DNA from: Phycisphaerales bacterium | GTDB taxonomy: Bacteria; Planctomycetota; Phycisphaerae; SM23-33 | Direction: 5' to 3' | Assembly: GCA_018644725.1 (NCBI GenBank) | Contig: JABGPZ010000044.1 | Location: 1 to 64,000, forward strand | Length of the DNA stretch: 64,000 bases | Shown: piece after piece, positions 1,061-37,446 of the stretch | How positions within the stretch are numbered: position 1 is the stretch's first letter | How the letters are laid out: every line of letters begins with the position of its first letter | Notes under the pieces: model-generated | What the model was told of the DNA's origin: nothing | What the model saw: only the letters and a program-made list of their open reading frames with translations | Database searches by the model: none | Program-made: the position numbers and the translations under genes

Positions 1061-4051
1061 ATGGGCAAGAAAAACCAGTACAAAGCGACTCTCAACCTTC
1101 CCAAGACCAGCTTCGACATGCGCGCGGGGCTACTGACCAAGGAACCCGCGACCCAGCAGCGCTGGACCGAGGAAGACCTGTATGGCCAGATTCGCGAAGC
1201 ACGTAAAGGCAGTGAACGCTTTATTTTGCATGACGGTCCGCCCTATGCCAACGGCAACATTCACATCGGGCACGTGCTGAACAAAGTCCTCAAGGACCTC
1301 GTGATCCGTACGAAGACGATGGCTGGATTCGACGCGCCGTTTATCCCCGGGTGGGACTGCCACGGTCTGCCGATCGAGGCGAAGGTCATGGAGAAGCTCG
1401 GCGAGAAAGCCAAGACGCTCGACGCGGTGGTCATCCGCCGAATTTGTCGTGAGTACGCCGAGAAGTTTGTCACGCTGCAGAGCGACCAGTTCGAGCGCCT
1501 CGGCTGCTACGGCGAATTTGATGATCCCTACATCACGATGGATCCCGGCTACGAGTCGGCGACCCTTGGCGTGTTTGCCCAGCTCATCGAGCGCGGGCTG
1601 GTCTTCCGCCAGCTCAAGCCGGTCCACTGGTCAATCGCGAACCAAACCGCGCTTGCCGAGGCGGAACTGGAATATCAGGACCGCACCGACACGAGCATCT
1701 TCGTGGCGTTTGACGTGGTGGCTGGGCTCGAAGCGATTCCGCACACCCCCGGCGATACGGTCGGGCTGCTGATCTGGACGACCACGCCCTGGACGCTGCC
1801 GGCGAACCGCGCGGTGGCCGTTGGCCCGAATATCGAATACGTCGCCGTTCGCACCACCACGCCCGACGGGCCGATGACGGTGGTCTGTGCGGCGGAACTG
1901 CTCGAGAAGGTCAAAGCCGCCGCCGAAGACGGCTGGCTGGCAGACGCCGAAATCGTCGGCACGGTGCGCGGGGAAGACCTCGCCAGCGCCAACATTCAAT
2001 ATGCCCACCCGCTGTCCGAGGGCATGACCTGCCCGTTGGTCGCCGCGGATTATGTCACGCTCGAAGACGGCACGGGCCTGGTGCACACCGCGCCCGGCCA
2101 CGGCACGGATGACTATTTCACTGGCCTGAAGAACGGCTTGGAAACCTACTGCCCGGTTCTCGCCGATGGCATGTTCGACGCGACCGTGCCGGGCTGGCTG
2201 ACCGGGAAAAGCGTGTGGGACGGCAACACGGCCGTGATCGAATTCCTCCGCAACAAGGCCCGCCTGGTTTCGGCGACGGACATCGAACACAGTTACCCCC
2301 ACGATTGGCGCAGCAAGACGCCGACGATTTTCCGCGCGACCGAACAGTGGTTCATCGGCGTGGATCGCCCGCTGGGCAGCGAGGCCGACGCGTTCACGCT
2401 CCGTAGCCTCGCCCAAGACGTGACGGGCAAGCCCCTCGCCGAGGGCGGCGTGGACTTCATCCCCGACTGGGGCCGCAACCGCCTCGGCGGGATGCTCGAA
2501 TCGCGCCCGGACTGGTGCGTCAGCCGTCAGCGCAGCTGGGGCCTGCCGATTCCCGCGTTCTTCACGCCCGATGGCGACGTGCTGTGCACGGCCGAAACGG
2601 TTCGCACCGTGGCCGCGTGCTTCGGGGAACATGGCAGCGACGCATGGTACACGATGACTCCGGCGGAAATCCTGTCGGGCTATGATCTTACCGAAGACGA
2701 CGCGGTCGAAGATGCGTCGAAATTTGACCTCGCGACCCTGACCAAGGGCGGCGACATTTTCGACGTTTGGTTCGAGTCCGGCAGCAGCTGGGCCGCCGTC
2801 GCGAAACTCCGCGGCCTCGTCGAGGACATCCCCGTGGACCTCTATCTTGAAGGGTCCGACCAACACCGCGGCTGGTTCCAACTTTCGCTGTTGCCCGCGC
2901 TGGGCGCACAGGGAGTCCCGCCGTTCAAGACGGTCCTCACCCACGGCTTTATCAACGACGCCGAGGGCAAGAAAATGTCCAAAAGCCTCGGCAACGGCGT
3001 CGACGTGCAAGAGCAGCTGTCCAAGCGCGGCGCGGATATTCTGCGCCTGTGGGTAGCCAGCCAGGACTATCGCGACGACGACCGCTGCAGCGACGAACTC
3101 ATCGCGCAGTGCGAAGATACCTACCGCAAAATCCGAAACACGATCCGCTTCTGCCTCGGCTCGATTGGCGACTACAATCCGGCCGACGGCGTATGCGAGC
3201 CAGCCGAGCACTCGCTGGACCGCTGGATGCGTCTGGAGCTGGAACTGCTGATCCGCGACGTGCGCGGCATGTTCGACCGCTACGAATTCCACGTCGCGAT
3301 GCGTCGGCTGTTCGAGTTCTGCACCGTGCAGGTTTCGAGCGTCTACCTCGCGGCGATCAAGGACCGGCTGTACTGCGAGCTGCCCAACAGCCCGCGCCGC
3401 CGTGCGACCCAGGGCGTCCTGCGCGACGTGGTGGTCACGCTGATCAAGCTTCTCGCGCCGATCATCCCGTTCACCGCCGAAGAGGCCTGGGCGAGCATTC
3501 CCCACGCCGACGAGGCCGAGCCAAAGAGCGTCCACCTCTCGATCCTCCCCCAGAGCGACGCGGACATGCTCGAAATCGCCGAGGACATCCGCCCGGTCGA
3601 CCACAAACTGCTCACCGAGCCGGATCTGGAATTGGTCTTCGGGCCGGGCTGGATCTGGGAACGGCTGATGGACCTGCGCAGCAAGGCGCTGGTGAAGCTC
3701 GAAGACATGAAGGCCGCCGGCGTGAAAAACTCGATGGATGCCGAAGTCGTCTTCGCGATTCCCGAGAACCTCCCGGGTCTGCGAACGATTGTCGAATCCT
3801 ATCTGCCGGAACTCGAAGACCTTTGCGGCGTGGGCTTTGCCCGCATCGAAGCGGCCGAGGCCGTCGAAGATGCCGCCGCCGGTGTCGAGTCGATCGCCGT
3901 CAGCGTGGTCGATACGCGCGAGAGCTATGAATGCTGCGAACGCAGCTGGAAGCGCCGTCCGGACGTCGGTTCCGACGCGGCCTACCCCACGCTTTCGGCC
4001 CGTGACGCCGCCGTAGTGGCTGAACTCGGCTTTGTGCCTGACAGCGAATAG
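1061..4051 (+). CDS. ileS: isoleucyl-tRNA synthetase
   Basis: HDGPPYANGNIHIGHVLNKVLKD, WDCHGLPIE and KMSKSLGN motifs; full-length 996 aa. Confidence 0.97.
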   Translation: MGKKNQYKATLNLPKTSFDMRAGLLTKEPATQQRWTEEDLYGQIREARKGSERFILHDGPPYANGNIHIGHVLNKVLKDLVIRTKTMAGFDAPFIPGWDCHGLPIEAKVMEKLGEKAKTLDAVVIRRICREYAEKFVTLQSDQFERLGCYGEFDDPYITMDPGYESATLGVFAQLIERGLVFRQLKPVHWSIANQTALAEAELEYQDRTDTSIFVAFDVVAGLEAIPHTPGDTVGLLIWTTTPWTLPANRAVAVGPNIEYVAVRTTTPDGPMTVVCAAELLEKVKAAAEDGWLADAEIVGTVRGEDLASANIQYAHPLSEGMTCPLVAADYVTLEDGTGLVHTAPGHGTDDYFTGLKNGLETYCPVLADGMFDATVPGWLTGKSVWDGNTAVIEFLRNKARLVSATDIEHSYPHDWRSKTPTIFRATEQWFIGVDRPLGSEADAFTLRSLAQDVTGKPLAEGGVDFIPDWGRNRLGGMLESRPDWCVSRQRSWGLPIPAFFTPDGDVLCTAETVRTVAACFGEHGSDAWYTMTPAEILSGYDLTEDDAVEDASKFDLATLTKGGDIFDVWFESGSSWAAVAKLRGLVEDIPVDLYLEGSDQHRGWFQLSLLPALGAQGVPPFKTVLTHGFINDAEGKKMSKSLGNGVDVQEQLSKRGADILRLWVASQDYRDDDRCSDELIAQCEDTYRKIRNTIRFCLGSIGDYNPADGVCEPAEHSLDRWMRLELELLIRDVRGMFDRYEFHVAMRRLFEFCTVQVSSVYLAAIKDRLYCELPNSPRRRATQGVLRDVVVTLIKLLAPIIPFTAEEAWASIPHADEAEPKSVHLSILPQSDADMLEIAEDIRPVDHKLLTEPDLELVFGPGWIWERLMDLRSKALVKLEDMKAAGVKNSMDAEVVFAIPENLPGLRTIVESYLPELEDLCGVGFARIEAAEAVEDAAAGVESIAVSVVDTRESYECCERSWKRRPDVGSDAAYPTLSARDAAVVAELGFVPDSE

Positions 4052-4140: not shown

Positions 4141-4455
4141 TGGACTGATAAATATGCGACAGGATTGTCTCAAGCGCCGGAGGCGCGAAAGTATTTAGCC
4201 GGGGGCGTAAGCCCCCGGAATGAGGCATAATAAAAAGAGCCCCGAAGGGGCGAAAGAAACACCCATCTTACATTTCTCTTTCGCCCTTCCAAGGCTTGTG
4301 GAATTCGCCGGGGCTTGCCTTAGTCTTTCCGGTCACAAGCTCCCTCCAAGAAACTAAGGCCCCGGCTTTTTGACACCCACTACCGAGGGCTTACGCCCCC
4401 GGCTAAACACTGTTGCCCTTTCAGGGCAAAGACTAGCCCAGCCCAACCGGGCGAG
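4141..4455 (-). repeat. composite palindromic intergenic repeat, copy A (inverted relative to copies B and C, with extra nested hairpin)
   Basis: Shares CTTTGCCCTGAAAGGGCAACAG / TTTAGCCGGGGGCGTAAGCCC / TTTCGCCCCTTCGGGGCTC / CCGGGGGCTTACGCCCCCGGCTAAA / GCGCTTGAGACAATCCTGTCGCATA modules (reverse complement) with copies at 31.3 and 37.2 kb. Confidence 0.85.
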
Positions 4456-6231: not shown

Positions 6232-7353
6232 CGATCGAGCAACACCGCTCAGTGGCGCTCATCGACAACAACCGAGAATACAGGCCGAAACGCTTGTTCC
6301 TGTGAGATTTTCGAAGTCCAAAAAACTTCTGAAAAATTTCAGAAAACGGGAAAAAGGCCTTGACTCGACCCTCGAAATGGCTTACTTTACGTAGGCTCAG
6401 ACCGCGAGGTCTATAAAGACATCTATATAAAAACAAAAGGAAGAGGTTTTCTCCGGACTACTGCTCAACACTTCAGTCCATTCGAACCTCTTGAACCCGC
6501 GAAGATTTTCTGCGAACTCAGGCTGCAGCTCATTGCACCCGCCGCAACGAATCGAGCGGATCACAATTGAACAAGAGGATCCAGACCCCCTCGGCTATTT
6601 CTCCAGGCTCCCAGTGCGGATTCTGCGTGGGATGGTGCGAAATGGTTTGGAATTTCCTGGAATGCGAACCGCGACCTCACGAGGTCCGTCTATGCCCGCT
6701 TTGGGTGTGTCGGCCTGGAAGTGTCGCACGGTCTATCGCTCGACGCCTACCAATGTGGGTAGGGCGGGCAGTGGCCAGATTCGCAAACCGTGCCTTGGAA
6801 GACGACGAGAAGAGACCGTGCCTTGGACGACGAGGCTCAGAGAGACACCATTCAACCCTGGCTCAGCCCTGCAGCATGGGACGCTCAATCCCGCAGGACG
6901 CATTGACACAAAGGAGGACACGTCGAATAACGAACGCTCAGTTCGGACGCCGCATGCCAAGCCATAGCTCATGGCCGCCGCAGACCGGCATCCACCGTCT
7001 CGGGGTGTTGCGCCACTGGTGCGCAAGGGACCCGTCAGAGATGCGCCAAGAAGACCCGCATCGTACTGGCAAACGAAGAGATCTAGGCATCTACAGATGT
7101 ACACATGACTGGATTTGCATATAAGCCGCTTCCTCAGGCCACTCAAGCCTGATCCGGGACCTCACAAGGCGCAAGACCAATCGCATCCGTCGGGATGGGC
7201 CGCAAGGCCGAAGCGAATTGCAGGACTCACCTGCAGACAACACAACCAACAGGACTCACCTGTTGCCCCTGGCCGGATTGCTCCCCGGCACGAACAGGGA
7301 CGCTCAATGCTCAACAGAGGCCGGCACGACCGGTCCAACGAAAGGACGCTCAA
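6232..7353 (+). ncRNA. long structured non-coding 5' leader with CTCA-loop hairpins
   Basis: No convincing ORF; hairpins e.g. 6878-6892, 6931-6945, 6961-6975, 7134-7152, 7219-7235, 7247-7265, each with GCTC/CTCA in or at the edge of the loop. Confidence 0.5.
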
Positions 7354-8667
7354 ATGAAACGCTCTACTATGGGAACCCGAATTGCATTAGGAATTGTGAT
7401 GTTTGTCCTTGCCGCCAGCAGTGCGCTCGCGGCTGTTCCGACTCGAGAACTCTCCTCCGCCGTGCGCAATTGGTACATCTATTCTGATGGCGACGGGTCA
7501 CAACCGATTGACCCCTCCCAAACCAATGGGATTCTCGACGTGAACGACGACCCGTTCATCGCAACCTTCCAGAACCGCAAGACCACCGACGACAACGCCG
7601 TGGCCTTGACTTCGGCCTCGGCCAGCGCCAACACCACCTCGTTCTACATGAACTATTCCGGCGCGGAAAACCAAAGCTCGATCTACTACCTCACCCAGTC
7701 CAACGGCATCGGCGGCTACAACCGCGCACAGCACGAGCGCTATTCCGACGCCAACGGCCACGCGCTGGGTTGGACGACTCAGTCGGACGCGGGTGGATTT
7801 AACCTGATGACCGTTTCGGTCCACAATGGCGCGAACACCATCAACGATGGTGGCCAGACCTACAACGCCAACCCGCAGGTTGCTTCGGCAACGGGGATGA
7901 ACAACGCCTCCAAAGACCCCATCACCGGCGCACACTACACCCCCAAGTACAACGAGGCGACCGACGCCTACGACGAAGCTGTCAACTACTGGCGCCACAC
8001 CTACCAGGAAGCTGCCTGGGTCGCACAGGACAAGAACACCGAGAACGACAGCTACCGTGGTCTGAAGCTCTTTGATCGCGAAGGCCAAGCGTATGACGGC
8101 GCGCTCAACCCCGCCACCGGCGTCTACAGCGCACTTTACGAACAAGCTGGCACGACCGTGGGCGACTATGGCTACCAAGACACCTTCGTCAACGAAGGCC
8201 AAGGCGGCGTAATCAACGGCCTCGCCGGCACCGAGTTCGAATCGAGCGATCCCGACCGCGTTGAAAACCAACAGGTCATCCGGATCGACTTCGAAGACTT
8301 CAACATGACCTTTGCCGAAGCGACCAGCGAAGGCTTCCTCCTGGAAGAACAGTGGATGGGCGCCTATGACGCAGCTGACCTGGTCAACGCCGTTGACGAG
8401 TTGGTCTTCTACGACTACGGCGCAGCGGGCGATGCCGAAATGATCGCGCTTCTGCTGAACGTTGACCGCAGCCGCACCATGGCCGAAGGTCAAATCTACC
8501 TCGACAACAACGATAACGACATCTTCGACGCAGGCGACTACGCCTTTGCAGACAACCGCGTGTTCATCGCCGAGTTGGACCAGGTTCCTGAACCGGCCAC
8601 GATGAGCCTTCTGGCTCTGGGCGGGCTGGGAATGTTGCGCCGCCGCAAGGCACGCAAGAACGCCTAA
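7354..8667 (+). CDS. PEP-CTERM sorting-domain protein
   Basis: Signal peptide MKRSTMGTRIALGIVMFVLAASSALA and C-terminal VPEPATMSLLALGGLGMLRRRKARKNA; SD AAAGGA 7 nt before ATG. Confidence 0.9.
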   Translation: MKRSTMGTRIALGIVMFVLAASSALAAVPTRELSSAVRNWYIYSDGDGSQPIDPSQTNGILDVNDDPFIATFQNRKTTDDNAVALTSASASANTTSFYMNYSGAENQSSIYYLTQSNGIGGYNRAQHERYSDANGHALGWTTQSDAGGFNLMTVSVHNGANTINDGGQTYNANPQVASATGMNNASKDPITGAHYTPKYNEATDAYDEAVNYWRHTYQEAAWVAQDKNTENDSYRGLKLFDREGQAYDGALNPATGVYSALYEQAGTTVGDYGYQDTFVNEGQGGVINGLAGTEFESSDPDRVENQQVIRIDFEDFNMTFAEATSEGFLLEEQWMGAYDAADLVNAVDELVFYDYGAAGDAEMIALLLNVDRSRTMAEGQIYLDNNDNDIFDAGDYAFADNRVFIAELDQVPEPATMSLLALGGLGMLRRRKARKNA

Positions 8668-8691
8668 CCCCAACTGATGGATCGAAGATGA

Positions 8692-8715
8692 CCCGCCGGA
8701 GCAGAATCCGGCGGG
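8692..8715 (+). other. strong hairpin just after the PEP-CTERM stop codon, without a T-run
   Basis: CCCGCCGGA-GCAGAA-TCCGGCGGG perfect 9-bp stem. Confidence 0.6.
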
Positions 8716-9000
8716 GAGGGCGGACAACGACTGCCCAAAGAGAACCGACAGAACCCCTCCAGGCTGGTTGAGCCGGAGACCCCGATTGACAACTACAGAC
8801 GACCAGGCCGCCGGGGCAACGAATCTCCCGCCCTAGCGCTGCTCCCTGACGCGACAGACAACCACACCTCAGGTTGAGCTGCACGCCAGGGCGGGCAACC
8901 TTCGAGGACCCGACGGCCTGCGATGCGATGAATGCATCGGGAGACACGAGAGGCGCGAGAAACCGCCGCCTCTCCCAACATTCCCTTCGAGCGCGACACC

Positions 9001-9554
9001 GCGCTCAGGACCAACTATCCCAGAGAGCGCGGGCGCTCACAAAACGCGCCACACTATGCAGCACTCAGGAAAAACTATCCCAGAGAGCACAGAGCACCAT
9101 GAGCATGAATTTAGGGGGCCGGATTGAGCCCCGGCTCCCCCTAAATTCCCCCAAGAGTGCCGAGCTTCAAACAACTATCCCAGAGAGCGCGGGCGCGTCC
9201 CGCGAGTATTTGAGCAATGAAGAAGAGTGGATTGAGCTCCACTCGACCCCAGGGCGCCTGAGAGACCGCCCGACGACAGAGCTGAGAGCCTGTCGGCCGC
9301 AGACGTGAGAACTCTGCGCCTCTCAAACATTTCGGGCGCGAATCAAACCGCGACCACGATACATCCCAACGCAAAATTTTCCCAGAGAGCGCGGGCGCGT
9401 CCCGCGAGCATTTGAGCAATGAAGAAGAGTGGATTGAGCTCCACTCAACCCCAGGGCGGAGGTGAGAGACCGCCCGCGACAGAGGTGAGAGCCTGTCGAA
9501 GGCCGCGAGCCTGAGAACTCGCGCCACCATACCGCAGGGCCTGAGAATCCTGCG
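9001..9554 (+). ncRNA. array of TGAG-loop hairpins and internal direct repeats (3' UTR or independent ncRNA)
   Basis: At least nine hairpins with TGAG in the loop plus 66-nt direct repeat 9179-9244 / 9381-9446 (1 mismatch). Confidence 0.6.
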
Positions 9555-9625
9555 ATCAGACTGAACTTCAAGGTTCCGTCTGACGAGAGAGCCCGTGGCC
9601 TGCTGAACGCAGGTCGCTAACGAAG

Positions 9626-9663
9626 AACCCCACCGGATTAGCCTGACATCGGTGGGGTTTTTC
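9626..9663 (+). terminator. rho-independent terminator ending the PEP-CTERM/hairpin-array transcript
   Basis: AACCCCACCG...CGGTGGGGTTTTT. Confidence 0.85.
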
Positions 9664-9740
9664 TATGCGCACACGGAATGGGGGACTCTTGTGGTTTGCT
9701 GCTGGCTGCGGCGTCGGCCTATGCGCACACGGAATGGGGG
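9663..9740. repeat. 22-bp perfect direct repeat pair, 56-bp offset
   Basis: CTATGCGCACACGGAATGGGGG at 9663-9684 and 9719-9740. Confidence 0.85.
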
Positions 9741-11608: not shown

Positions 11609-12307
11609 ATGAAGTTGGATAGCAAAGAACTCGCGCGCATGATCGACCTGAGTTGCGTTCGCGCCGACAGCACACTCGCCGAGCTGTCGGATGCGGTGGC
11701 CCTCGCCAAGCGCTATGACATCTTCTGCCTGTTTGCGCTCCCGGCGCACACGGCGCAGCTGGTGGAGATGATCGCCGACCGCGACGACATGATCGTCGGC
11801 GGGGTGGTCGGTTTCCCTGATGGCGGGGCGACGACGGCCGGCAAAGTGTCCGAGGCGAAGGAACTCATTGCCGCGGGCGTCAGCGAGCTGGACATGGTGA
11901 ACAATATTGCGTGGCTCAAGGGCGGCGATGATACTGCCTATGAGGCCGACATCCGCGCGGTCGTCGAGACCGGTGCCCAAGCGGGGATTCCCGTGAAGGT
12001 GATCCTTGAATGCCACTATCTGACCGACGCGGAGATTTCGCGCGCGTGCGAGCTTGCGGCCAATGCGGGCGCGGCGTGGGTGAAAACCGGCACGGGCTGG
12101 GCACCGACTGGCGCGACGCTGGAGAACGTGGCGCTGATGAAGAAGACCGTTGGCGAGCGCTGTAAGGTCAAAGCGGCCGGCGGCGTGCGCGATATCGAAA
12201 CCATCGAAGCGATGATCGACCGCGGCGTCGAGCGCTTCGGTATTGGCGTGCGAACCGCCCAGGCCATCCTCGAAGGCCTCGCCGCTCCGGCGGATGCGAC
12301 CTACTAA
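11609..12307 (+). CDS. deoC: deoxyribose-phosphate aldolase
   Basis: AAWVKTGTGW Schiff-base Lys motif, VKAAGGVRD, overall DeoC pattern. Confidence 0.92.
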   Translation: MKLDSKELARMIDLSCVRADSTLAELSDAVALAKRYDIFCLFALPAHTAQLVEMIADRDDMIVGGVVGFPDGGATTAGKVSEAKELIAAGVSELDMVNNIAWLKGGDDTAYEADIRAVVETGAQAGIPVKVILECHYLTDAEISRACELAANAGAAWVKTGTGWAPTGATLENVALMKKTVGERCKVKAAGGVRDIETIEAMIDRGVERFGIGVRTAQAILEGLAAPADATY

Positions 12308-12353
12308 TAGGCACGACGAATACACTCCCACTGAAGATTTTAGCGAAAGACAA

Positions 12354-14972
12354 ATGATGCAGATTAACACGATAACGAAACGAACGATGATGACCCTCGT
12401 GGCCGTTTTGGCCGCCGGCGCGATTTGTTTGTGTGCGACTCAAACGATGGCCGTGCCCAAGACCAAAGCAAAAGCGAAGGCCAAACCCAGACTCAAGGCC
12501 AAGGCTTCCAAACCCGTTTCCAAGGCTACTCCCAAGGCGATCTCTGCCGAATCGATCCAGGCCGCGATCAGCGCGCTCGAAGTGAAGTTCGGCGATACCT
12601 ATGACGGTGAAGGCTTCCTCAAGACACTCGCCGCTGCGAAAACGCCGGCCGAGCTTGCCGCAGTCCAACGCGCCGCGCTGATTACGAATAACCCTTATTT
12701 TGCGGGCAAGGAACTGCTCTACGTCGTCCGCAAGCAGTATCGCAAGGACCACCACAACACCGCGACGCTGTTCATGAAGAACGAAGTCAATTCCGGCAGC
12801 TTCGATGGCGGCGGGACGATGAAAGCGTTCGACATCGCGACGGAAAAAACCCGCACATTGGTCGATTCCCCCACTGGGGTCGTGCGCGATCCGGACGTGA
12901 GTTACGACGGAAAGACCGTCCTGTTCTCGTGGCGCAAATCCAAGGCCGACGAGTATCATATTTACGAAATGAACGCTGACGGCAGCAATGTCCGGGCGCT
13001 CACCAGCCATCCGGAAGTGGCCGATGTCGATCCGATCTACATGGGCGATGGCGACATCGTGTTCACCTCGACGCGCGAGCCGAAATATTGCATGTGCAAC
13101 GTCCACATCATGGCGAACCTGTATCGTATGAAGCCCGACGGAGCGAACATTCATCAGATCGGCCGCAGCACGCTTTTCGAAGGCCACCCGGCCGTATTGC
13201 CTGATGGGCGCATTATTTATGATCGATGGGAATATGTCGACCGGAACTTTGGCGACGCCCAGGGCCTGTGGGTGGTCAACCCCGATGGCACGAACCACGC
13301 GATTTTCTATGGCAACAACACGCCCAGCCCCGGCGGCGTGATCGACCCGCAGCCGATCCCTGGCAGCAAGAAAATCGTCGCGATTTTCAGCTCGTGTCAC
13401 GATCGGGCGTGGGGCGCGATGGCGATGATCGACCGCACCAAAGGTGTCGATGGCAAAGCGCCCGTCGTGCGCACCTGGCCGGAATCGGCAAAGGCACTCG
13501 TGCGCGACCCCGGACAGGCCAACGGCGTGTGGGACACCTTCTGTCGCGTCAAGCCGAGATACGAAGATCCCAAGCCGCTGGACGAAAATTTCATCCTCGT
13601 CAGTCGCGAAGTTGCACCCGGCAAGGAGATCATGGGTCTGTTTCTCGTGGACACGTTCGGCAACGAAATCCTGATCCACACCGAGGGCGCGGGATGCTTC
13701 GATCCGATGCTGATCGCTACGCGCGCCAAGCCGCACCCCCTTGCGCTCCACCGCGACTTCAACGGCAAGAATGGCCGATTCTATGTGATGAACGCGCACG
13801 AAGGCACGCACATGGAAGGCGTCAAGCCCGGCGATGTGAAGTTCCTCCGCGTGTGCGAAACGCCCGCAAAACTTGCGTGGACTGTTCCGAAATGGGGCGG
13901 CCAGGGCGTGCATCGCCCGGCGATCAACTGGCACGATTTTTCCACCAAGCGCGTACTCGGCACGGTCCCGATTGAATCCGACGGCAGTTGCCATTTTGAA
14001 GTGCCGCACGATCGATTCGTCTTCTTCCAGCTGCTCGACGAAAACCGCCAGCTCGTCCAGACGATGCGCAGTGGCGTGATCGTCCAGTCGGGCGAATTGC
14101 TCGGCTGCGTCGGCTGTCATGAAGACCGCATCAAGAGTTCCACCCGTGGCCGCGCTATGCCCATCGCGCTCAAAAACAAGGCCGTCAAACTCCAATCGCC
14201 CGACGGCGAAGCGATGAACTATCTCAAGCACGTCCAGCCCGTGTTCGATCGCAACTGTATTAAGTGTCACGACTTCGGCAAGCCTGGCGCGAAGCGTGTG
14301 ATCCTCGCGGGCGACATGACGATGGTGTTCAATGCGTCCTACATTTCGATGTGGTCGCAGTGGAAATCGAAGAAGCCGATCATTCGTCCCATCGGCGCAG
14401 GCCCGGCGGAAATCCTTCAGCCGCGCACCTGGGGCAGTCACGGATCGCTGCTGTCGAAGGTGTACATGGGCAAGCATCCCACGCACCCGAAGATTACCGT
14501 TCCCGAGGCCGACCAGCACATGCTGTCGATGTGGCAGGACCTCAATTGCCCGTATTACCCGGACTATCTCTCGGCCTATCCCAACGGCCTCGGCGGGCGC
14601 TGTCCGCTGACGGGTGCCCAGCTCAAGAAACTCGGGAGCCTCACGGGCAAGAATCTGTCGGGTCGCGAGATGTGGGGACATATCCGCAAGGTCGGTCCGC
14701 TGGTGAGCTTCAGCCGACCGGAGATCTCGCCGTGTCTCGCGAAGCTCAAAAAGGGGGCCGCGAAATACAAACAGGCCCTCGCGATTATCCAGGCCGGCGC
14801 GGCGATGTTGAAGAAAACACCGCGCGCGGAGATGGCCGGCTTTGTGCCGTGCGAAGACAACCGCAAGCGGCTGGAGAAGTATACCCGTTTGATGGAGCAG
14901 GAACGCGCCAGCCGTGACGCACTGCGCGACGGCACGAAGGTCTACGATCCCGGCCTCGCCCCGAAGAAATAA
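12354..14972 (+). CDS. secreted TolB/WD40-like propeller protein with c-type haem motifs, HzsA-like
   Basis: Signal peptide; repeated propeller segments (DPDVSYDGKTVLFSWR, GHPAVLPDGRIIYDRWEYVDR); CVGCH and CIKCH haem-binding motifs. Confidence 0.7.
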   Translation: MMQINTITKRTMMTLVAVLAAGAICLCATQTMAVPKTKAKAKAKPRLKAKASKPVSKATPKAISAESIQAAISALEVKFGDTYDGEGFLKTLAAAKTPAELAAVQRAALITNNPYFAGKELLYVVRKQYRKDHHNTATLFMKNEVNSGSFDGGGTMKAFDIATEKTRTLVDSPTGVVRDPDVSYDGKTVLFSWRKSKADEYHIYEMNADGSNVRALTSHPEVADVDPIYMGDGDIVFTSTREPKYCMCNVHIMANLYRMKPDGANIHQIGRSTLFEGHPAVLPDGRIIYDRWEYVDRNFGDAQGLWVVNPDGTNHAIFYGNNTPSPGGVIDPQPIPGSKKIVAIFSSCHDRAWGAMAMIDRTKGVDGKAPVVRTWPESAKALVRDPGQANGVWDTFCRVKPRYEDPKPLDENFILVSREVAPGKEIMGLFLVDTFGNEILIHTEGAGCFDPMLIATRAKPHPLALHRDFNGKNGRFYVMNAHEGTHMEGVKPGDVKFLRVCETPAKLAWTVPKWGGQGVHRPAINWHDFSTKRVLGTVPIESDGSCHFEVPHDRFVFFQLLDENRQLVQTMRSGVIVQSGELLGCVGCHEDRIKSSTRGRAMPIALKNKAVKLQSPDGEAMNYLKHVQPVFDRNCIKCHDFGKPGAKRVILAGDMTMVFNASYISMWSQWKSKKPIIRPIGAGPAEILQPRTWGSHGSLLSKVYMGKHPTHPKITVPEADQHMLSMWQDLNCPYYPDYLSAYPNGLGGRCPLTGAQLKKLGSLTGKNLSGREMWGHIRKVGPLVSFSRPEISPCLAKLKKGAAKYKQALAIIQAGAAMLKKTPRAEMAGFVPCEDNRKRLEKYTRLMEQERASRDALRDGTKVYDPGLAPKK

Positions 14973-31299: not shown

Positions 31300-31534
31300 A
31301 TTGGGCTTGTCTTTGCCCTGAAAGGGCAACAGGATTTAGCCGGGGGCGTGAGCCCCCGGTAGTGGTACCCCAAAAATAAGCCCTGAAAGGGCGAAAGAGG
31401 AATGTAGGATGGCCGCTTCTTTCGCCCCTTCGGGGCTCTTTTCATTATCCCGCATTCCGGGGGCTTACGCCCCCGGCTAAATCCTTTCGCACCTTCGGCG
31501 CTCGAACCAACCTTGTCGCATAATCAGTCCACTT
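31300..31534 (+). repeat. composite palindromic intergenic repeat, copy B
   Basis: CTTTGCCCTGAAAGGGCAACAGGATTTAGCCGGGGGCGTGAGCCCCCGG ... TTTCGCCCCTTCGGGGCTC ... CCGGGGGCTTACGCCCCCGGCTAAATCC. Confidence 0.9.
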
Positions 31535-37199: not shown

Positions 37200-37446
37200 A
37201 CCCGGTTGGATCGGGTTGCCTTTGCCCTGAAAGGGCAACAGGATTTAGCCGGGGGCGTAAGCCCCCGGTGGATGATCATTAGAATCTGAGCCCTGAAAGG
37301 GCGAAAGAAGAATGAAGGAGAGGTGTTTCTTTCGCCCCTTCGGGGCTCTTTTCTTTTTTTCCGCATTCCGGGGGCTTACGCCCCCGGCTAAACCCTTTCG
37401 CGCCTTCGGCGCTTGAGACAATCCTGTCGCATAATTATCAGTTCAC
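37200..37446 (+). repeat. composite palindromic intergenic repeat, copy C
   Basis: Same modules and order as copy B; ends GCGCTTGAGACAATCCTGTCGCATAATTATCAGTTCAC. Confidence 0.9.

Follow-up and report, generated by a model that had tools for sequence, protein, structure and literature searches.

The closest described relative, in function, of the locus analysed here is the icaR mRNA of Staphylococcus aureus, in which a single 7-nt anti-Shine-Dalgarno word in the 3'UTR is directed at the translation start region; pairing of this type is recognized by physical pairing together with compensatory mutants, and by RNase III cleavage (PMC3868564). Another system of interest is that of CsrA, with its CsrB/RsmZ sponge RNAs and the mRNA leaders that it binds (PMC7652899). 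For the genes of PEP-CTERM proteins, finally, a sigma-54 DNA element is known that has been found only in Proteobacteria, and the authors of the founding paper left the control elements outside Proteobacteria to be found (Haft et al. 2006, PMC1569441).

Here, we analyse a hairpin array in a 64,000-nt stretch of DNA from a Phycisphaerales bacterium (assembly GCA_018644725.1, contig JABGPZ010000044.1, forward strand), called the window below. We will argue that an RNA control element in two parts, situated in the mRNA of an exosortase-sorted surface protein, would have the array as its 3' untranslated half. As judged from the sequence, the arrangement looks like a previously undescribed control of surface (PEP-CTERM) protein genes.

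The hairpin array and its loop word

The initial annotation had pointed out that the segment 9179-9244 recurs at 9381-9446, over 66 nt and with the single mismatch T9207/C9409, and this is exact. The repeat in fact reaches further (91% over 93 nt, at a spacing of 202), and the two copies continue as parallel hairpins, with small indels, up to about 9318 and 9523 (Table 1). The stem differences that had been listed are also present, namely CGCAGA/TCTGCG (9298-9318) against CGCGAG/CTCGCG (9504-9523), the extension of GGGCG/CGCCC (9252-9271) to GGGCGG/CCGCCC (9454-9475), and the change from U-G to C-G at the single mismatch, which closes a 4-bp stem around TGAGC.

These differences had been taken as paralogous covariation. 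The covariation is real, and no pair is broken between the copies, but it comprises just one two-sided event, the first of the three, for which the best alignment consists of paired small indels on both arms and not of three independent double substitutions. The other two events are one-sided and keep the pairs, the GGGCGG extension having arisen through a change in the 5' arm alone. With so few stem differences, the covariation sample is very small and insufficient alone for a covariation test. Pair-keeping changes are found in other duplicated trailers too: an A-U pair has become G-U in unit C4 of the related genome G017, and one base pair is lost on both sides in unit C18 of the window genome. 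The additional argument that the wobble suggests RNA is not supported by the counts. Stems with TGAG loops in four trailers have 7 G-U against 6 A-C positions, and over all hairpins there are 18 against 12, which does not discriminate the strand (the former numbers were counted by hand).

The conserved feature of the array is the hairpin loops, with the stems free to vary. The hairpins at 9114, 9225, 9252, 9274, 9298, 9427, 9454, 9477, 9504 and 9533 have different stems, and all of their loops contain TGAG. When 1.48 Mb of this genome were scanned in 450-nt stretches, nine hairpins with the loop 4-mer TGAG were found in the stretch considered here, every other stretch had at most four hairpins with any one loop 4-mer in common, and no standalone UGAGC array was found elsewhere in the scanned 1.48 Mb. 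In the trailer as a whole, TGAG occurs 15 times (6 expected) and TGAGC 8 times (1.8 expected). Compared with shuffles, the segment 9173-9560 has a folding z-score of -4.5 and the complete trailer (8668-9667, about 1000 nt) one of -9.0, while the values for the coding sequence (-1.95) and the leader (-1.7) are far weaker.

Selection on structure, as concluded in the initial annotation, is supported, mainly by evidence beyond that annotation: the unrelated stems that carry the same UGAG(C) loop, both in the window and in trailers of other genera, the strong folding in three genera, and the sense-strand terminators (see below). What had been missed is the conservation of the loops and the context of leader, promoter, gene and terminator.

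We have also considered that the trailer may be a self-contained mRNA-stability or antitermination structure that arose by tandem duplication, in which case TGAG would be inherited from one amplified hairpin and its complementarity to the leader would be coincidental. Internal duplications are indeed present in the window trailer and in two trailers of G017, with copies 519 nt apart in C4 and three 105-nt units in C40. However, each copy in the window contains five TGAG hairpins with unrelated stems, and the same loop word appears in the non-alignable trailers of other genera, matching the leader word each time. This explanation is in our judgement quite improbable. Another option is that the hairpins sequester CsrA, as the trailer is a multi-hairpin RNA with a common loop word and one CsrA is encoded in the genome. 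However, GGA is depleted in the trailer (14 vs 24.7), AnGGA occurs once vs 6.3 expected, and GGA is present in none of the 16 trailer hairpin loops. The defining loops of a CsrA sponge are therefore absent; this identity was rejected, and we give it almost no weight.

The host gene and its predicted transcript

The array is located downstream of a PEP-CTERM protein gene. The C-terminal domain of the protein scores 28.3 bits with PF07589 (cut-off 20.7), and the genome encodes two exosortases and has 25 PEP-CTERM matches, such that the host gene has both the C-terminal domain and an exosortase in the genome, as defines a PEP-CTERM/exosortase system.

Between the gene and the array, the sense strand yielded no sigma-70-like promoter, so the array is most simply the 3'UTR, about 1 kb long, of the PEP-CTERM mRNA. 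The sense-strand terminators, which are also found downstream of the trailers in other units, likewise place the array within the mRNA of the predicted transcript. Array, gene and leader would in that case form one long mRNA with predicted ends.

The leader is rich in GCTCA, with some copies in hairpin loops (Table 1). In the start region, one GCTCA (7348-7352) lies between the Shine-Dalgarno sequence and the ATG, and GCTCT (7361-7365) falls in codons 3-4. The TGAGC loops of the trailer are complementary to the former, i.e. to a site in the initiation region of what is predicted to be the same mRNA, as in pairing of the icaR type.

Table 1. Positions of the features discussed, in window coordinates.
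Feature	Position	Strand	Remarks
Predicted promoter	6360..6399	+	TTGACT-17-TACTTT (6360-6388), then GCTCA (6395-6399) 6 nt past -10, predicted transcript 5' end
5' leader, about 960 nt, GCTCA-rich	6395..7353	+	11 GCTCA in 1030 nt vs 1.5 expected; TGAGC 0
Leader hairpin	6877..6893	+	TGGGA-cGCTCAa-TCCCG
Leader hairpin	6931..6945	+	CGAAC-GCTCA-GTTCG, loop exactly GCUCA
Leader hairpin	7134..7152	+	loop cACTCAa
Leader hairpin	7218..7236	+	loop ACTCA
Leader hairpin	7247..7265	+	CAACAGG-ACTCA-CCTGTTG
Start region	7343..7365	+	AGGAC-GCTCA-AATG-AAAC-GCTCT; both word positions conserved in orthologs
PEP-CTERM protein gene	7354..8667	+	437 aa; ortholog family in Phycisphaerae
3' trailer, about 1 kb	8668..9663	+	highly structured, z = -9.0; TGAG/TGAGC excess
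Trailer hairpin	9114..9139	+	loop ATTGAGCC
Duplication copy 1, trailer	9172..9318	+	hairpins 9207-9219, 9225-9244, 9252-9271, 9274-9295, 9298-9318; TGAG loop in each
Duplication copy 2, trailer	9374..9523	+	hairpins 9409-9421, 9427-9446, 9454-9475, 9477-9498, 9504-9523; TGAG loop in each
Trailer hairpin	9533..9554	+	loop CCTGAGAA
Intrinsic terminator	9622..9668	+	sense strand, 14-nt arms then TTTTT
Acido-Lenti-1 pair 1	4173-4218(-)/4383-4428(+)		Rfam
Acido-Lenti-1 pair 2	31314-31359(-)/31457-31502(+)		Rfam
Acido-Lenti-1 pair 3	37223-37268(-)/37368-37413(+)		Rfam

A number of other observations were made in the window. At 6787-6842, and in the leaders of the related units G023, G012 and G017, a second element is built around GCCTT(G/C)G, in many cases with GACGA(C)GAG after it; ACGAGAG occurs in the trailers of the window unit, G023 and G017 as well. 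Between the terminator and the next gene, a perfect 22-nt direct repeat, CTATGCGCACACGGAATGGGGG, is found at 9663-9684 and 9719-9740. The six Acido-Lenti-1 RNAs (RF01687) form three inverted pairs, the two starts of each pair being separated by 143-210 nt, an arrangement that looks meaningful in itself, and a large protein at 12243-14972 has a match to the middle domain of hydrazine synthase alpha (HZS_alpha, 102.8 bits).

Related units in other Phycisphaerae

In the following, W is the window unit, and the G numbers, Dive96 and ETNP2 are related genomes or units; nearly all of the genomes are MAGs. A pattern search of the genome contigs for the PEP-CTERM protein alone gave none, and orthologs of the window protein were instead recovered via alignment, in Phycisphaerae MAGs at 29-35% identity. 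No DNA homologs of the trailer were found among 60 relatives, and the flanks are not alignable between genera.

With no word chosen beforehand, the leaders of W, G023, G017, G012, G028 and G007 all have GCTCA as their top 5-mer, and TGAGC is absent or rare in these leaders, which amounts to a strong strand bias. Trailers enriched in TGAGC are those of W, G023 and G017 C4, plus that of a PEP-CTERM operon, G017 C40. Among 1024 jointly enriched reverse-complement 5-mer pairs, leader GCTCA with trailer TGAGC comes out on top in W, G023 and G017 C40. In G017 C4, it takes second place, with the overlapping TGCTC/GAGCA ahead of it. The leader word is enriched in most lineages, and leader and trailer arrays occur together in three genera, with folding z-scores of the trailers of -9.0 (W), -5.4 (G023) and -8.0 (G017). 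Trailer UGAG is located in strong hairpin loops in 38% of cases, to be compared with 4.5% in shuffles, and leader GCUCA shows a modest excess in such loops (13% vs 5%). The leader motif also occurs on its own, with no UGAGC trailer, in G012, G028, G007 and others. Beyond the 5-nt core, pairing scores between start region and trailer were not higher within a unit than across units. ETNP2 (L196) was considered as a fourth two-array unit and rejected, since its terminator about 130 nt past the stop leaves one TGAGC in the trailer.

The existence of leader-only units implies that the trailers act in trans, or that a second factor also reads GCUCA. One could accordingly imagine GCUCA as the site of an RNA-binding protein, with a logic similar to that of Csr but a different word; the trailer loops would then be involved indirectly, as anti-sites that mask or release the leader, or as sites of a second protein. 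The many spaced copies, of which one covers the start region and another marks the 5' end, are reminiscent of multi-site repressor leaders, and units with a leader array only are common. On the other hand, it would be left unexplained why leader and trailer words are exact reverse complements of each other (rank one among 1024 pairs in 3 of 4 units, rank two in the fourth), and no candidate protein was found. We regard such a protein as possible, though doubtful.

The word also occupies fixed positions. In 11 units, from this genome and related ones, GCTC(A) is located 6-7 nt past the -10 hexamer. With respect to the start codon, GCTCA is found at -6 to -8 in W, G023, G017, G012, G027, G030, Dive96 and ETNP2, and many units have GCTC at +6/+7; in at least seven lineages GCTC(A) lies between the Shine-Dalgarno sequence and the ATG.

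The DNA-only pattern TTGAC-N17/18-TANNNT-N6/7-GCTCA, used without gene information, has 23 matches in the family of the window genome, compared with 5 for the reversed pattern that served as control (hand-summed). It leads to PEP-CTERM genes in ten units, namely W, G017, G023 (two), G021, G033, G014, G003 and G001, and G035 of the sister family. Outside these two families, none of the 11 inspected loci with this pattern has a PEP-CTERM gene. For the ribosome-binding-site pattern AGGA-N-GCTCA-N-ATG, about half of the matches over the family are chance matches, and those with at least three GCTCA upstream are nearly all PEP-CTERM genes.

These positions also bear on a possible function at the DNA level, in which a transcription factor or another DNA-binding protein would recognize GCTCA/TGAGC as an oriented site, with the sites on either side of the gene facing inwards. 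The leader and trailer words are indeed the same double-stranded site in opposite orientation, and one copy is in the promoter discriminator. However, TGAGC is almost absent from the leaders, the trailer words are placed in hairpin loops, the position is fixed relative to the start codon and extends into the first codons, and the arrays are inside predicted transcripts. We therefore consider a DNA-level site unlikely.

Some units have additional features. The leader of ETNP2 contains, at about 3690-3885, a tandem duplication of about 100 nt with GGCTCAAGCC in each copy, and in that of G023 (L028, about 565-702) a good Shine-Dalgarno sequence (AGGAGAAACGATGGCTCAG...) accompanies what may be a leader ORF of about 45 aa. 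On contig C18 of the window genome (L251, minus strand, 3130-1600), a sigma-54 activator gene (Sigma54_activat, HTH_8) has a GCTCA-rich leader, with 6 copies in 300 nt, yet its trailer loops contain GCTC and not TGAG. The duplicated hairpins of this trailer read GGTGGGACTGCCC-TGCTC-GGGCGGTCCCACC and GGTGGGACTGCC-TGCTCA-GGCGGTCCCACC, with the paired loss of one base pair. The activator is far below the PrsR cut-off, and its best family is NorR. On contig C9 (L152, minus strand, 6690-6190), a promoter-like site, several GCTCA, a 27-aa signal-peptide-like ORF and a terminator make up a small unit, which might be what is left of a PEP-CTERM gene, or else a small regulatory RNA.

Proposed mechanism

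Post-transcriptional regulation in Planctomycetota has been little explored. We propose, with moderate confidence, that GCUCA is a control element of PEP-CTERM leaders, and that translation or decay is tuned by its pairing, in cis or in trans, with the UGAGC loops of the trailer. The leader half would present GCUCA at the 5' end of the transcript, many times along the leader and once or twice flanking the start codon, while in the trailer half many hairpins would carry the complementary UGAG(C) in their loops. The loops could pair with GCUCA in the leader of the same mRNA. An alternative route would be pairing in trans, either with another copy of the mRNA or through a piece of the trailer that is released as a 3'UTR-derived sRNA. 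In both cases, the pairing may alter the access of the ribosome to the start region, the decay of the mRNA, or both, and the many weak 5-bp contacts would act through multivalency. Other PEP-CTERM mRNAs of the genome might become targets via the common leader word. Such an element would widen the communication between 5' and 3'UTRs in bacteria, known from one anti-Shine-Dalgarno word, to a multivalent device at the level of a regulon.

The anatomy of the locus, its recurrence in other genera, the fixed positions, the complementarity, the placement in loops and the association with the PEP-CTERM regulon are features of the DNA itself. From them we infer the transcript ends, the action at the RNA level and the pairing of leader and trailer, with its sign (repression or protection) and timing.

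A more far-reaching version, which we find rather unlikely, would be a regulon-wide RNA code in Phycisphaerae, where surface-protein mRNAs start with GCUCA and are studded with it, and the multivalent UGAGC hairpin arrays in the tails of a few hub mRNAs pair with these leaders in trans, head-to-tail. If true, translation would be coordinated, or the mRNAs would be clustered into an assembly.

Comparison with known systems

Rfam 15 gives no match at the gathering score at the leader, the trailer or three related loci, and literature searches aimed at the element returned no description of it. Like icaR, the present locus has a long 3'UTR in which a short word is complementary to the region where translation of this mRNA starts; both are connected with a surface/biofilm function, and for both cis and trans action are considered (PMC3868564). 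The present locus differs in having many loops and many leader sites instead of one word, and in the position of the word beside, and not on, the Shine-Dalgarno sequence; here the word is found at the 5' end too, and a set of PEP-CTERM genes is marked by it. There is no homology between the two loci, and the pairing here is predicted from sequence.

With the CsrB/RsmZ sponges and the CsrA-bound leaders, the similarity lies in a repeated short loop word on differing stems and in sites over the ribosome-binding region; here, however, the word is UGAG/GCUCA and not AnGGA, and the array would be a 3'UTR and not a free sRNA (PMC7652899).

The proteobacterial PEP-CTERM site, finally, which involves sigma-54 and PrsK/PrsR, is likewise a shared cis element, lying upstream of numerous PEP-CTERM genes whose non-coding 5' regions are long (PMC1569441). 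There, it is a DNA enhancer with a sigma-54 promoter, whereas here a sigma-70-like promoter would be followed by an RNA word that is repeated up to the start codon.
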